DNA of 64,000 nt from an uncultured Sphingomonadales bacterium. GTDB lineage: Bacteria; Pseudomonadota; Alphaproteobacteria; Sphingomonadales; Rhodothalassiaceae. The stretch's first letter is position 1. Each line of letters starts with the position of its first letter. This document shows positions 35,094 to 42,079 of this stretch, in pieces. The notes beneath the pieces are model-generated. The model ran no database searches, was not told the origin of the DNA, and saw only the letters and a program-made list of their open reading frames with translations. Location of the stretch: contig CANMND010000002.1 in the NCBI GenBank assembly GCA_947499155.1, positions 248,001 to 312,000 of the forward strand, given 5' to 3'. A program made the position numbers and the translations under genes.

Positions 35094-35903
35094 TCATAAG
35101 GGTGCGGCAAAAAACTGTGCTTCAACCAGGTCAATTACTGCAGCCGATTGCGCATAGGTGATAAAGTCTTTTGCCAGTCCGATTGGTGCGGCCTTCACCA
35201 CCAGATTAAGCTCACGCGACAGGGGGTAATGGCCTGATGCCACAGCCTTTACCGTGGCCGGTTCATCTGCCATCGGCAGTAATCTGATGGGTGTGCCGTG
35301 AGCTTCTTCATAAACGGCGGCGCCAATGGAGACGTAGCCGATGGCGCCCGCGTTTCCTGCCACAGTTTTAATGCCCTGCTGATTGTCACCGATAATAATA
35401 TGAGCCTTGATCTGGCTGTTTTTGAGGGCGAAATGGTGTAAAAACAGTTCCAGCGTTGAACGCCCTTCCGCCTTGTTCACGACTGTTATCCGTTGATCCT
35501 TGCCTCCCACCTCATGCCAGTTTTTTATCTCTCCAGTGAAGATATTGATGATCTGTTGATCACTCAGACTGGGGACCTTGTTGTCTTTATGAAGGATAAT
35601 GCCGATACCGTCGATCGCGACGAGATAGGCTGTCAGATCGCTTTCCGCAGGCTTCAAGGCGCGGGACACCATACCAATATCCGACATCCCCATCCGGACA
35701 TCATTGATGGCACGGGACGAGCCGCCCATCTGGACATCAATGCGCACACCGGGATGGTCTGCTTCATAGCGCTTGGCGATTTCCGACATCAAAGGTGCAA
35801 CGGTACTGGACCCGGTCAGAGTCAGCCGATTATCGGCTGCGTGTGCGATAGACAGGCTCATAACCGCACCCAAAAGCAACAACACTCTGACAAGCACTTT
35901 CAT
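35094..35903 (-). CDS. phosphate ABC transporter substrate-binding protein (PstS-like)
   Basis: Signal peptide; LTGSSTVAPLMSEIAKRYE, QMGGSSRAINDVRMGMSDIGMVSR; next to pstC. Confidence 0.9.
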   Translation of the reverse strand: MKVLVRVLLLLGAVMSLSIAHAADNRLTLTGSSTVAPLMSEIAKRYEADHPGVRIDVQMGGSSRAINDVRMGMSDIGMVSRALKPAESDLTAYLVAIDGIGIILHKDNKVPSLSDQQIINIFTGEIKNWHEVGGKDQRITVVNKAEGRSTLELFLHHFALKNSQIKAHIIIGDNQQGIKTVAGNAGAIGYVSIGAAVYEEAHGTPIRLLPMADEPATVKAVASGHYPLSRELNLVVKAAPIGLAKDFITYAQSAAVIDLVEAQFFAAPL

Positions 35904-36421
35904 GGTGAAAGGCTCCTCATGGCCTTACACAGCGTAGCCTTGCTGTTTGAGGAAGACAGCATCGTCGTCAAAGACTCAATCCGTGCCTTGAGGTCATTAA
36001 AACAGCGGGCAAAATTTGCGCGTTCTTCTTCAAGATCGTCAGACGAACCTGCCGGATCAGGAAAGCTCCAGTGGAGACGCTCATAATCACCTGTAAAAAC
36101 AGGGCAGGGTTCAGACGCAGCGCTGTCACACACGCTCAGAACCAGATCCAGTTCCGGTGCATCAGGCTGAGTAAATTCATCCCAGTTTTTGCTTCGCAGG
36201 GCAGTGGTGTCTGGCACATCCAGTTGACTGATCTGTTCCAGAGCCAGCGGATTAACCTTTCCAGTAGCGCGACTGCCTGCGCTATAGGCCTGAAACAAGC
36301 TACCCCCGACAGTATTGAAAAGTGCTTCTGCCATGATGGAGCGGGCAGAATTGCCTGTGCAAATGACCAGCACCCGCATTTTGGGTATCTGTGGATTATT
36401 ATGGCCTTCCATCAGCAACAT
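35900..36421 (-). CDS. arsC: arsenate reductase, low-molecular-weight phosphatase type (ArsC)
   Basis: RVLVICTGNSARSIMAEALF (CxxNSxR P-loop), SQLDVPDTTALRSKNWDEF, LVLSVCDSAASEPCPVF. Confidence 0.88.
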   Translation of the reverse strand: MLLMEGHNNPQIPKMRVLVICTGNSARSIMAEALFNTVGGSLFQAYSAGSRATGKVNPLALEQISQLDVPDTTALRSKNWDEFTQPDAPELDLVLSVCDSAASEPCPVFTGDYERLHWSFPDPAGSSDDLEEERANFARCFNDLKARIESLTTMLSSSNSKATLCKAMRSLSP

Positions 36422-37512
36422 GACCCTCCTTTTGCAGCAGGAGCAGGGCTGGCCAGTACAACACCAGAAGCTGAAAGAGGCGACGGGAGAGACTCTACCG
36501 GGGCTGATTCATTAAAAGGCATGGAAGACCCACAACCCTTGAAAATACCAAAATGATGATCGAAATCACCGATGAATGTGAAGTGATCGGCAAAGCGGGT
36601 GTCTTTAAGCATACGCCATGTGTTGCCACAAACAGGGAACACGCGGCCCGTTTCGATTACATGATGCTCATCCAGAATGAACCGGTGCGGATTGTCAGGA
36701 ATAGTACCATGATAGATTACAGCCTGCCCATAATCCTCGCAGGCACTTTCCAGCTCATCATCCCTGAATAAACGATAGGTCGCTGAGAAAAAGCGAAGAT
36801 TACCAGCCTTCAGGGCAAGGGCATCATCGGTAATCTCTAAAGGGCGATGCTCTACCAGGCGGGGATCTGCAAAGCCTGCATCTTTTGAGAGCTGCAGAAA
36901 GTCATTCCAATAAAGCGCACCTCCCAAGCATTCTCCGTACATGACCGGATCCTCACGGACCGCATCCGGCACGCGGCGATCAGAATAAACATCGGAGAAA
37001 TAAAACTCTCCGCCCGGCTTCAACAGGCTATGCACGCCCTCTAGGACCGCAGCCTTATCCGGCGACAGGTTGATGACGCAATTGGATACGATCACATCAA
37101 AAGAGCCAGGCTCCAGATTCAGTTCATCAAGCTTTTCAATATAACCCTTGATAAACCGCACATTATCAAAGCCGAAGGCTTCTGAGTGCCAGTCCTGGTG
37201 ACCCTTGGCCACTTCCAGTTGCTCATCGGTCATGTCAACGCCCACGACCTCACCCTTTGGCCCTGCAAGCTGCGCCAGTGCATAGACGTCCCGCCCGGAA
37301 CCGCAGCCAAGATCCAGCACCCGGCATCCTTCCAGAAGGGAAGGGCAGACCAGACCGCAGCCATAATAGCGTGACAAAACCTCGGGATGGATGCGCGCCA
37401 ACAGGGGTTTGAGCCATGCTGGCATTGTACTGCTGTCACAGCAGGCGCTGGTTTTCAAATCGGCTGAGCTTTGCAGCGTTTTGCCGTAATAGTCCTTGAC
37501 GATTTTATGCAT
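36412..37512 (-). CDS. arsM: arsenite S-adenosylmethionine methyltransferase
   Basis: ATG at 37512 (MHKIVKDYYGKTLQ); VLDLGCGSGRDVYALAQLAG, IVSNCVINLSPDKAAVL, FSDVYSDRR, conserved Cys residues, C-terminal GGSCC. Confidence 0.93.
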   Translation of the reverse strand: MHKIVKDYYGKTLQSSADLKTSACCDSSTMPAWLKPLLARIHPEVLSRYYGCGLVCPSLLEGCRVLDLGCGSGRDVYALAQLAGPKGEVVGVDMTDEQLEVAKGHQDWHSEAFGFDNVRFIKGYIEKLDELNLEPGSFDVIVSNCVINLSPDKAAVLEGVHSLLKPGGEFYFSDVYSDRRVPDAVREDPVMYGECLGGALYWNDFLQLSKDAGFADPRLVEHRPLEITDDALALKAGNLRFFSATYRLFRDDELESACEDYGQAVIYHGTIPDNPHRFILDEHHVIETGRVFPVCGNTWRMLKDTRFADHFTFIGDFDHHFGIFKGCGSSMPFNESAPVESLPSPLSASGVVLASPAPAAKGGSCC

Positions 37513-37536
37513 TGGGGCTCGCTCCATCCAAACTCG

Positions 37537-38118
37537 TTATCCTGAGACCAAAGTATCGCGCGGCTGTTCGTTAAGCATTTTGCAGTGTTCAAAGGCAAAA
37601 TCTCGAATCTGGTCGAAATCCAGATGGTCTCCTTCATCTCTTCCGTAATAAGATTTTTCTATAATACCAGCGCTGTTCACCAGAAATTCTGCGGGCATGG
37701 TATCCATGCGGCCGCCGATGGTTAACGGAAAATAGCCCTTGCCAAACATGGCCTTAAGCAATGTAGGGAAGCGAAAGACCAGGCCTTTCAGAACACCTTT
37801 CCATGAGTGGCGGATGCCATAATATCCGTGAACGACCCCGCCTTCGTCAGCGAGAACTGGAAATGGAGAGTCGTGCCGTTCAGCGTATTTTTGCAGATCA
37901 GACAAGGATGATTCAAAAACTGCAACAATTGCAAAATCTTTTGGCAGTTCATCCAGACGACTGATCAATTGATGCAGACGAAGGTTACAAAATGGACAGG
38001 ATGCAAATCGAAAAAATGCCAGCAAACAGGGATTCCCGGCCATAGTGTCAGAATTCCATACCGAACCATCCATTGATGGCAGGCTGAAAGAAATAACCGG
38101 CTGTCCAGGCTGTAGCAT
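37537..38118 (-). CDS. peroxiredoxin-like (AhpC/TSA fold) protein
   Basis: Thioredoxin fold with AFFRFASCPFCNLRLHQL. Confidence 0.85.
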   Translation of the reverse strand: MLQPGQPVISFSLPSMDGSVWNSDTMAGNPCLLAFFRFASCPFCNLRLHQLISRLDELPKDFAIVAVFESSLSDLQKYAERHDSPFPVLADEGGVVHGYYGIRHSWKGVLKGLVFRFPTLLKAMFGKGYFPLTIGGRMDTMPAEFLVNSAGIIEKSYYGRDEGDHLDFDQIRDFAFEHCKMLNEQPRDTLVSG

Positions 38119-38200
38119 GGGTAATACCTTATTAAGGATTTTCTTATTGGTCGCGAGTTAATCCGGATTTCTTACACGTCTCATACGGAAAAATGTGGGC

Positions 38201-38953
38201 TCAGTGATTGGCCATCGGAAAGTCGCAAGAAACGTCCGCGCCTACAAAGTGCAGATCTGCAAAACCGGCACGGGCCTGCTCTTTGGTGTTATCTGTGTCT
38301 GAAGCCACTGCCAGTAAGCTTGCTTTCATGGGATGGTCTCCAAATGCCTGACGAGCATCCAGCAATACATTGCGTCGCTCTTGCACCCAGTTGCCTGCAT
38401 TGTCTGGACCAGACTGCACCACTGACATGCGCATGCGGTCAGTATAGGCGTTAGGCATGTCAGTCCCAACGGGATAACGATTATCCCACACATAATTGAT
38501 CGCAGCGTCAGGAACGTGTTCTCCAAAGATCTGCCGTGCCAGATTCAGTTTAAAGCGGGTGCCCCAACTCATTGCAGATCGCGGGAATTCGAACGCCACA
38601 TAAACTCTGGCTGCATAATCATCACCGGATTTGCGACTCATATCGGCTGACTCAAGCGGTGAATCCACTCGCCAGCGCCAGCACAGAACTGGTGTCTGCT
38701 CCAACTGAATCTCAAGCGGACTGGCAAGAAGTGCCATGCTGGCATCCGCACTGGCTTCAATTGCAGTCACACCGTCCCAGTGAATAATTTGATAGCGCGT
38801 CTGCGGTACCTTCTCATCCAGCTGAATTACATGCCAGGGGTCTGGCGGCACTTCAGACTCATGAGTGAAACTGCCGACTGCTACAGTCGGCAGGGTAGTA
38901 TCTATAAGGCCAGCACCTGAACTGATGATCAGGGCGACAGCAGGTCCCAGCAC
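38201..38953 (-). CDS. DUF3047 domain-containing protein
   Basis: TPVLCWRWRVDSPLESADMSRKSGDDYAARVYVAFEF; GTG at 38953 just past the DoxX stop is a likelier start than the ORF-track ATG at 39067. Confidence 0.8.
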   Translation of the reverse strand: MLGPAVALIISSGAGLIDTTLPTVAVGSFTHESEVPPDPWHVIQLDEKVPQTRYQIIHWDGVTAIEASADASMALLASPLEIQLEQTPVLCWRWRVDSPLESADMSRKSGDDYAARVYVAFEFPRSAMSWGTRFKLNLARQIFGEHVPDAAINYVWDNRYPVGTDMPNAYTDRMRMSVVQSGPDNAGNWVQERRNVLLDARQAFGDHPMKASLLAVASDTDNTKEQARAGFADLHFVGADVSCDFPMANH

Positions 38954-38954
38954 T

Positions 38955-39389
38955 TTATGTGTTGTTTCTGGCGGGCCACACGTACAGCTCGTCCCAATCT
39001 CTGAGCCAGTAAAGCGCAAGACAGGCCGCCAGCATTGGCCATGCCGCAAAGAACAACAGGCTATCAAATGGGGTCATGTACAATTTGTAGGACGCAAAGG
39101 TAGAAATGCCGTGAATGATCAGGACAGCGCCATATGTCAATCTGCGTTTAATGCCGGCAACAAATGCCAATATCAGCAAAAGTTCAAGGCCACCAATAAT
39201 ATAAGAGAGATTATCGGTCAGCCAGTCGATACCATAAAAGCTATTGAATACCGCTCCTGTGTGAGACGGATTAACGAATTTATCCAGTGTCCACATTAGC
39301 ATAACCAGAAACACGCCAAGTCTCAGCACCAGTAATGAACGCGTCAGTCGCTTTTCCAAATCAGCAGAAAGGGAAGAAGTGTCGGACAT
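38955..39389 (-). CDS. DoxX-like four-TM membrane protein
   Basis: 144 aa, about four TM segments, RLGVFLVMLMWTLDKFVNP. Confidence 0.75.
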   Translation of the reverse strand: MSDTSSLSADLEKRLTRSLLVLRLGVFLVMLMWTLDKFVNPSHTGAVFNSFYGIDWLTDNLSYIIGGLELLLILAFVAGIKRRLTYGAVLIIHGISTFASYKLYMTPFDSLLFFAAWPMLAACLALYWLRDWDELYVWPARNNT

Positions 39390-39566
39390 TTGTTACTCTC
39401 CTTGCTCGATCATGCATCGCAATCAAGTCACGTACACGAATTCGTAATGGTGGATAGGTCGCAGCTAACCAATTCTGAGGCCAGAATCATAATTGTGCTG
39501 CCAGACTCGCTGCACACCATTTCGGAGCAGGGATGATAGAAAAGCCATAAAACTCTTTGTATTTAC

Positions 39567-39584
39567 ATTCACATTTATGTGAAT
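39567..39584. promoter_or_regulatory. palindromic candidate operator upstream of the DoxX...ArsM...Pst operon
   Basis: ATTCACAT-TT-ATGTGAAT perfect 8-bp inverted repeat. Confidence 0.45.
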
Positions 39585-39659
39585 ATTCATTTGCTCTGTG
39601 GCAGGAGACGGCCTTGTCAAGGGTGCCTGTAATCTGGCTGGAAATCTTTAAATTATCGA

Positions 39660-39707
39660 CAGACTGATGTCTGCACCAAGCATTTTTAGACAGTGATTGG
39701 TGCAGAC
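39660..39707. other. overlapping alternative hairpins
   Basis: CAGAC(39660-39664)/GTCTG(39669-39673) and GTCTGCACCAA(39669-39679)/TTGGTGCAGAC(39697-39707); the middle arm is shared. Confidence 0.5.
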
Positions 39708-39798
39708 CATGTTTATGAGATACCTATCGCCAAATGCTATCCAGCAATGCCTTATGTAAATATAAAACAACCTTTAAAGGTGTGATATTTAGATATAG

Positions 39799-40422
39799 TC
39801 AAAAGCTCTGAATCAGTCCGATAGATTTATTCGCTGTATTTCTTTTGCGACGCAACATAGTACATCCACCCAATATCAATGCTCCGAAAGCAAAGATAAC
39901 AAGTGTGGCCGGTTCAGGCACAGTTACGACCGTAGGCGTGATGGTGCCTTTAAAATTCAAGAAAATCCGTATAGGGGTGCCGGTAGTAAGAATTCCAGAG
40001 GCGCCTTGACGTATAGTTCCTCCTTCAAAATCCACCAGAGAGCCAATGCCTGGGCTGGCAATAATGCTAAATGACACACGCTCTGGCGAACCAAACGGGT
40101 CCAGTCTGCCATTGCCAAGACTGACCAGCCATTGGTGTGATGACGCTTGTTGGTGCAGAATAGTGTCGAAAGTCGGTAAAGTAGGAAATCCAGCAAATGT
40201 TATACCCATTGATGATATTACGCCGGAGTCTGTATCGACAGCCATAAACCCGTTGAAATCACCTCCTCCAGGGACGATTCCACGATCCCAATGGCCTTCA
40301 ACATCAAAATTAATTGGAGTCGCATAAGTAATCGACGGCAAGAAAATTACCGCCATCAAGCCTGCAAATAATGCTTGGGCACAGTGTTGCCACTTAATCT
40401 GTTTCACTTTATAACTCCTCAA
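39799..40422 (-). CDS. PEP-CTERM sorting-domain protein
   Basis: N-terminal signal peptide; C-terminal VPEPATLVIFAFGALILGGCTMLRRKRN (PEP motif, TM helix, Arg cluster). Confidence 0.88.
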   Translation of the reverse strand: MRSYKVKQIKWQHCAQALFAGLMAVIFLPSITYATPINFDVEGHWDRGIVPGGGDFNGFMAVDTDSGVISSMGITFAGFPTLPTFDTILHQQASSHQWLVSLGNGRLDPFGSPERVSFSIIASPGIGSLVDFEGGTIRQGASGILTTGTPIRIFLNFKGTITPTVVTVPEPATLVIFAFGALILGGCTMLRRKRNTANKSIGLIQSF

Positions 40423-40496
40423 CTATTAAAATATTAAGTGCGCACGAGCTATATTAGGAATAAACATTAAACTTCACCTATGCGCGTAAAATATTT

Positions 40497-40512
40497 AGCA
40501 AATATCGTACCA
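40497..40512 (-). promoter_or_regulatory. sigma-54 (-24/-12) promoter of the PEP-CTERM gene
   Basis: Minus strand TGGTACGATATTTGCT vs consensus TGGCACG-N4-TTGCW: one mismatch, GG-N10-GC spacing, 75 bp upstream of the ATG. Confidence 0.7.
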
Positions 40513-40706
40513 GTATAATTTACTGTTATAGATCACTGGATTATGCAAATAAGTAATTTTGAATGAATACAAAGTGTAAAGATAGTAAACACCTGCTTTG
40601 AGGCTGTTTAGGCCATCACCTACGTTCAGGCTTTACATTGCAAGATGTTTCAAACTTGGCAGTGTCTGTAAGAGACATCCAATCTGGAAGTATTTAGTAT
40701 TATTTA

Positions 40707-41336
40707 CTAGTGAAGTTCTGAGTTGAACTCACCCCATTCCGAAGGGACCCAGTGCAGATCATCTGGTTCGTCAACGTCATGGAGTTTATCCAGTTCAAAG
40801 AAAGACCAGCCCGCTTTTAAAATACGCTGGCGTGTTAATTCAGCCACTATATGCGTACTCCAGGGTATGTCGGAATATAGCTCGGGCAAATGATGGCGCA
40901 CGCCCAACAGCGCATAACCTCCATCACTCACGGGGGCGAGACAGCTGTCATGACCATCAAGGGAATTGGCTGCTTTGCGCAGCACGTTAGCGGTTAATCC
41001 CGGACAGTCTGTGCCGATCAACAGGATAGCTTCGCCATTATCGGTAACGCGCTGTGAGGCCCTTGCCAATCGCATACCCAAATCACCTTCCCCCTGGGTT
41101 GAAAGAATAAGGGATGCAGGAAGCGCCAACTTCGTCCAAATTGGATCTTCCAGGTCTGGGGCAACGCAGAGCTCCACGATCCCCACATCCGCGCGCAAAG
41201 CCTCGTCTATGGTGTGATGCAGCATGCGCCTGGCCAGTTGTGCTGAGCCTTCAGCCCCAAGAGACGGAATCAAGCGGGTCTTGGCGAGACCGGGCAGGGG
41301 CGCTTTTGCAAAGATCATGATGCGAACGGGCGTCAT
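40707..41336 (-). CDS. TIGR04282-like (DUF2064) glycosyltransferase, arsenosugar-biosynthesis associated
   Basis: ATG at 41336 (MTPVRIMIFAKAPLPGLAKTRLIPSLG); ILLIGTDCPGLTANVL; APVSDGGYALLGV. Confidence 0.87.
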   Translation of the reverse strand: MTPVRIMIFAKAPLPGLAKTRLIPSLGAEGSAQLARRMLHHTIDEALRADVGIVELCVAPDLEDPIWTKLALPASLILSTQGEGDLGMRLARASQRVTDNGEAILLIGTDCPGLTANVLRKAANSLDGHDSCLAPVSDGGYALLGVRHHLPELYSDIPWSTHIVAELTRQRILKAGWSFFELDKLHDVDEPDDLHWVPSEWGEFNSELH

Positions 41337-42079
41337 AGATACGCCCTTGCTATCTGGTCGGCTGGCATGCCGCGCCAGTATGAAAAGCGCAGTCGCCACA
41401 TCAGCCAGATGGTGCGCCATACACCCCGTGTCAGCCAGCGACGGCCAGATGTCGTGACCTTCTCATTGATGCAGGCGGGTCGCCCTTGACGCTTCAGGAG
41501 TTTTGATATCTCGATATCTTCCATAAGGGGCTGTTCGGGAAAGCCGCCAATTTCCTCAAAAAGAGCTTTCCTGACGAAAATAGCCTGATCGCCTGTTGAT
41601 ATTCCGGTGATGCAAGAGCGTAAGTTCATGAATAATGAAACGATGGACAGCATGAAATGATTGCCCTCAATCAAAACATTGAAACGGCCCCAGCTCTTTA
41701 ATTTCAGCGCCTTTAATATGATTTTTGGTCCATTATCCGGTAGTCGCGTATCAGCATGAAGAAAAACAAGCGCTGCGCCACTCGCCTGGGCAGCGCCAGT
41801 ATTCATCTGCAATGCACGGCCACGACCAGAATGGAAAACGGTAAATCCGATGGCTTGCGCAACATCTCCACAGCCATCTTCACTTCCACCGTCAACGAGA
41901 ACAATCTCGCAGCCATGACGTTTCCACTGCTGCAGATGGGACAGCAGATCAGGCAATACTTCCATTTCATTGTAGATGGGCACGATTATGGAAAGCTCCG
42001 GGCACCCTTGATGCCCAGAGTTCTTGAAGCTTTCTTGCGTCTTCACGCTTTCAGCGTGTTTTATTGAGGTCCCAGTCAT
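41333..42079 (-). CDS. TIGR04283-like family 2 glycosyltransferase, arsenosugar-biosynthesis associated
   Basis: LSIIVPIYNEMEVLPDLL, EIVLVDGGSEDG, GRALQMNTGAAQASGAALVFLHADTRLP, GDQAIFVRKALFEEIGGFPEQPLMEDIE. Confidence 0.88.
   Translation of the reverse strand: MTGTSIKHAESVKTQESFKNSGHQGCPELSIIVPIYNEMEVLPDLLSHLQQWKRHGCEIVLVDGGSEDGCGDVAQAIGFTVFHSGRGRALQMNTGAAQASGAALVFLHADTRLPDNGPKIILKALKLKSWGRFNVLIEGNHFMLSIVSLFMNLRSCITGISTGDQAIFVRKALFEEIGGFPEQPLMEDIEISKLLKRQGRPACINEKVTTSGRRWLTRGVWRTIWLMWRLRFSYWRGMPADQIARAYL

Follow-up and report, generated by a model that had tools for sequence, protein, structure and literature searches.

With a probability of about 0.9, the minus-strand element TGGTACGATATTTGCT is the -24/-12 promoter of a PEP-CTERM gene that forms a transcription unit on its own and belongs to the PrsK/PrsR regulon. 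The organism is an Iodidimonas-like alphaproteobacterium, as judged from its PrsR, which shares 79% identity with the Iodidimonas muriae protein. The window, that is, the whole stretch of 64,000 nucleotides analyzed, corresponds to C2:248001-312000 in a genome of 2.81 Mb and 25 contigs. The promoter is a sound case, but an ordinary one, of a known system that was predicted in 2006 (Haft 2006, PMC1569441). Whole-genome evidence confirms a promoter call that was made from the sequence of the window. Likewise, an orphan surface protein is assigned to a defined regulon, with a predicted start site that can be tested.

The sigma-54 element and the upstream motif

The features of the locus are the following.

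40575..40591, minus strand: motif 1, putative PrsR enhancer site TGTTTACTATCTTTACA, 17 nt ending in TTTACA, as in Haft 2006
40513..40574, minus strand: spacer of 62 nt from motif 1 to motif 2, within the main peak (61-66 nt) of related genomes
40497..40512, minus strand: sigma-54 -24/-12 element TGGTACGATATTTGCT (motif 2), with GG at 40511-40510 and GC at 40499-40498
40486, minus strand: transcription start predicted from the -24/-12 geometry, 12 nt past the C of the GC
40415..40420, minus strand: ribosome-binding site GAGGAG, by direct reading
39799..40407, minus strand: PEP-CTERM gene of 202 aa with a GTG start, a signal-like N-terminus and the VPEPATLVIFAFGALILGGCTMLRRKR sorting signal

Direct reading of the minus strand at 40512-40497 gives TGGTACGATATTTGCT, as the sequence-only reading had it. 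The element matches the consensus at 10 of 11 fixed positions with exact GG-N10-GC spacing. It lies upstream of the PEP-CTERM gene on the same (minus) strand, which is the right orientation. The claim that an ATG start follows 75 bp downstream does not stand. There is no ATG, and the likely start is the GTG at 40407-40405 behind GAGGAG, 89 nt from the site. The 75-bp distance would suit an in-frame TTG at 40422. From the predicted transcription start at 40486, the leader would extend 79 nt to the GTG.

In the 64-kb window, the pattern TGGYACGN4TTGCW has a single match without mismatches, and it is this element. Allowing up to two mismatches gives 28 window matches against 20.2 expected. When the window is scored with a sigma-54 matrix derived from other genomes, the site comes second among 127,970 positions; its score is not equalled in any of 2000 dinucleotide shuffles of the upstream region (300 nt). 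No sigma-70-like promoter was found upstream of the gene on its own strand. IHF-like sites with one mismatch are present upstream, and such sites are commonplace in AT-rich DNA. A scan of the whole genome gave four perfect TGGYACGN4TTGCW sites; with at most one mismatch, there are 71 genome matches versus 38 for a reversed-pattern control. Among the three other perfect sites, one precedes flagellar genes (FlbT/FlaF-like, by reading) and another adjoins a PspF-like gene. TGGTACGATATTTGCT looks like a genuine sigma-54 polymerase promoter site before the gene of an exosortase-sorted surface protein.

For regulon membership, we considered a 17-nt motif 1 ending in TTTACA and located 32-92 nt upstream of motif 2. 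TGTTTACTATCTTTACA, which the sequence-only reading had overlooked, presents this arrangement with a spacer of 62 nt, although its first half is atypical. Compared with the order-wide consensus TGTCGG-N5-TTTACA, the TTTACA half is kept and the other half is weaker (TGTTTA for TGTCGG). We count this divergence against the main reading. A genus-wide shift in PrsR specificity was rejected as its explanation, since a genome of the same genus (L228) keeps TGTCGG. With the relatives' matrix, motif 1 alone ranks 22 of 127,970. With pair matrices derived from 13 promoters in other genomes and without this gene, the motif pair has the top score (23.3; next, 15.8) among the 127,970 positions of both strands. 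In 2000 dinucleotide shuffles of the 300 nt upstream, the pair score was never reached, and matrices made from the same genome's other promoters give a concordant result. Because this PrsR-type motif 1 lies upstream, the site would be tied to PrsR rather than to another enhancer-binding protein.

The PrsK/PrsR circuit and its proposed regulon

The genome encodes RpoN (TIGR02395, 425.9 bits; cut-off 277). A search for a prsK/prsR pair, proposed by the earlier reading, found PrsR (TIGR02915, 619.9; cut-off 502.6) at C2:136549-137871. PrsK (TIGR02916, 484; cut-off 300) is encoded directly upstream of it. Two PrsT are encoded as well, above curated cut-offs. Exosortase A is fused to an EpsI domain (L077:400-2022, about C2:158400-160022). 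It scores 302.8 bits with TIGR03109 (XrtA; cut-off 208), 206.8 with TIGR02602 (cut-off 105.55) and, in the EpsI domain, 62 bits with TIGR02914 (cut-off 42.8). Its gene is about 128 kb from the PEP-CTERM gene on the same contig, among exopolysaccharide genes. By reading only, ORFs of the prsR/exosortase A region encode polysaccharide export, chain-length, kinase and deacetylase proteins. The proposed logic of RpoN with PrsK/PrsR is supported by rpoN, prsR/prsK, the sigma-54-like elements and motif 1. Each check proposed by the sequence-only reading that is open to computation had a positive outcome.

The predicted control of PEP-CTERM genes by sigma-54 extends beyond the window. Eight of the nine PEP-CTERM matches in the genome carry sigma-54-like and motif-1-like elements. 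It means that the gene is isolated locally, as first described, but not genome-wide. The spacers are 62 (window gene), 73, 72, 72, 63 and 61 nt. Two weaker cases were judged by eye, one with a spacer of 105 nt and one of about 62 nt with TATACA replacing TTTACA. The ninth match (C1:536840; region C1:535340-538411) is split over two frames and has no promoter pair. Across the genome, the motif-pair pattern has 22 matches versus 6 in the control; of the 22, six lie before PEP-CTERM genes and one before a flagellin gene. Judged as a group, most of the remaining 15 resemble GC-rich coding sequence. The sites, their spacing, the genes and their repetition along the regulon are direct observations in the DNA.

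Some loci deserve a separate description. At C2:146067-148374, two tandem paralogous PEP-CTERM genes adjoin two tandem prsT genes, and each paralogue has its own PrsR/sigma-54 promoter with 72-73 nt spacing. The split PEP-CTERM remnant at C1:536840 resembles a decayed regulon member. At C2:244446-244532, about 3.5 kb before the window, the flagellin gene has the sigma-54 element TGGCACAGGCTTTGCA and a TTTACA 66 nt upstream. This PrsR-like arrangement may be due to chance or to a control shared with flagella.

The locus agrees with the PEP-CTERM/EpsH (exosortase) system of Haft 2006, where the PrsK/PrsR circuit was predicted and the 17-nt motif 1 ending in TTTACA was assigned to PrsR (PMC1569441). 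In that work, motifs 1 and 2 precede proteobacterial PEP-CTERM genes, in the order motif 1, sigma-54 motif 2 and start. Here we also find a single gene, a long upstream region, a sigma-54 motif 2 and a TTTACA motif 1, together with PrsK/R/T and exosortase in the genome. The spacer of 62 nt compares with 62.8 +/- 10.6 nt (mean and s.d.), and the site-to-start distance of 89 nt with 71 +/- 38.5 nt. Unlike in the published motif, the left half of motif 1 is TGTTTA instead of TGTCGG. The hint of novelty for an alphaproteobacterium has to be dropped, as Haft 2006 already had Rhodospirillum rubrum (PMC1569441).

The pepA gene of Aquincola tertiaricarbonis RN12, studied in 2023, is RpoN1-dependent and its start site was mapped (PMC9850573). 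It shares with our locus a PEP-CTERM gene, a sigma-54 promoter, an upstream enhancer sequence, and prsK/prsR and prsT in the genome. However, Aquincola belongs to another proteobacterial class, and its start and RpoN dependence were measured, whereas both are predicted from sequence here. A prsK-prsR cassette failed to restore the flocculation of the Aquincola mutant (PMC9850573), and we count this against the main reading. In the literature examined, no demonstration of direct PrsR binding to motif 1 was found.

Helical spacing and the proposed mechanism

The motif pair recurs in the order. Of 251 genomes, 102 contain the pattern TGTCNGN5TTTACA-N(44-73)-TGGCN8TGC, and the reversed-pattern control has one match in total. 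With N(66-95) as the spacer, 36 of the 251 genomes are matched, and the control again has one match. There are at least 202 distinct pairs in at least 80 genomes (G054, G029, G069 and G012 among them). Among the matches listed, the spacers form peaks with means of 52.2, 63.8, 74.3, 85.0 and 94.0 nt and are almost empty between them. Their period, about 10.5-10.7 bp, is the DNA helical repeat. In these same matches, the 86 spacers outside the main peak keep its phase at a period of 10.5 (V = 0.69, p about 5e-20), and when each genome contributes one spacer, the median p is 2e-6. These statistics control for kinship only in part, and the pattern had already been noticed when the period was examined. 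An earlier matrix scan of fetched loci, which overlap partly with the 202-pair set, goes in the same direction (p = 0.0015 outside the main cluster). The spacing in non-alphaproteobacterial loci amounts to 7 mixed matches only.

A loose version of the pair shows a moderate association with PrsR among relatives (excess over control, Mann-Whitney p = 0.028). Genomes scored as PrsR-negative have 166 loose pairs versus 72 in the control, an excess that also counts against the main reading. One reason for the only moderate association is that the search for PrsR across genomes scored no more than 14 candidates in each.

The natural reading of this periodicity is that PrsR and the sigma-54 polymerase have to lie on one side of the DNA. 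The quantised spacers therefore fit direct looping. A strict spacing grammar, in which motif 1 and the -24/-12 element are separated by a whole number of helical turns, is likely. If true, PrsR activates over short rigid loops, and PEP-CTERM genes enter the regulon solely at permitted spacings. A precedent exists in the LuxO-qrr system of Vibrio, where the enhancer-promoter spacings of 61 natural enhancers cluster about 11 bp apart (PMC4740811). It differs in having another activator, longer loops (about 80-120 bp) and small-RNA genes. The text of Haft 2006 gives the mean and spread of the spacing and does not mention helical quantisation (PMC1569441). We found no earlier report of this quantisation for PrsR enhancers in the literature, and if anything here is new, it is the helical rule. 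Quantised spacing finds PrsR targets more sharply than the published mean.

At this promoter, sigma-54 polymerase would form a closed complex at 40512-40497, and the membrane kinase PrsK would phosphorylate PrsR, which would occupy motif 1 (40591-40575). With a 62-nt spacer, both polymerase and PrsR would lie on one helix face and could make contact by a short loop. ATP hydrolysis by PrsR would then open the promoter, and transcription would begin near 40486. The product would be exported, anchored in the inner membrane through its C-terminal helix and processed by exosortase A at the PEP site. We infer these functional steps in the organism, including binding, phosphorylation, start site and sorting, from the arrangement of sites and genes.

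The gene product and rival explanations

The PEP-CTERM product is above the cut-offs of TIGR02595 (22.4 bits; cut-off 16) and PF07589 (21.4 bits; cut-off 20.7). A low-confidence single-sequence prediction (pLDDT 51) gives an N-terminal helix, strands and a C-terminal helix. Among the 100 relatives searched, no orthologue was found in its genus, so the promoter site is beyond the reach of phylogenetic footprinting. Another genus has two weak matches at 30% identity, and a further, marginal match has 37% over about 60 residues; none of the weak matches was confirmed on search of the genome contigs. The neighbouring glycosyltransferase has only 30-35% matches among relatives, and therefore no syntenic empty site is shown. 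PEP-CTERM protein bodies are poorly conserved in general. Our best guess, by analogy with PepA of Aquincola (PMC9850573), is that the protein may contribute to the extracellular matrix or to aggregation.

A chance match in AT-rich intergenic DNA, with the gene driven by an unrecognised sigma-70-family promoter, is very improbable. Matches with two mismatches are indeed common in the window. Nevertheless, this match is perfect, in the right place and strand, and has the second motif at the proper distance; the shuffles, the regulon-wide recurrence and the lack of a sigma-70-like site on the strand argue in the same direction. It is also unlikely, though less so, that a real sigma-54 promoter responds to an activator other than PrsR (FlbD-like, NtrX, PspF-like or unassigned). 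The genome holds at least six other enhancer-binding proteins, including NtrX and the FlbD-like and PspF-like ones, and other sigma-54 sites precede flagellar genes. However, eight of nine PEP-CTERM matches have the TTTACA motif 1 (one as the TATACA variant), and its pairing with motif 2 is the published PrsR profile.

Slightly more probable, but still unlikely, is that the promoter is real and the gene is orphan or decaying cargo without function. This is compatible with the main promoter reading. The missing orthologue in the genus and the broken match at C1:536840, devoid of a promoter pair, would favor it. Against this, the 202-aa frame is intact, with both sorting signals and a ribosome-binding site, the gene owns the top-scoring promoter pair of the window, and low conservation is usual for the bodies of these proteins.

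The PEP-CTERM gene lies in the middle of an arsenic-related gene set (window 35900-42079, minus strand). Just upstream of it, two genes are above the cut-offs of TIGR04282 and TIGR04283 (arsenosugar biosynthesis glycosyltransferases). Downstream, matches to an arsenite methyltransferase (36412-37527) and an arsenate reductase (35900-36421) are below cut-off.
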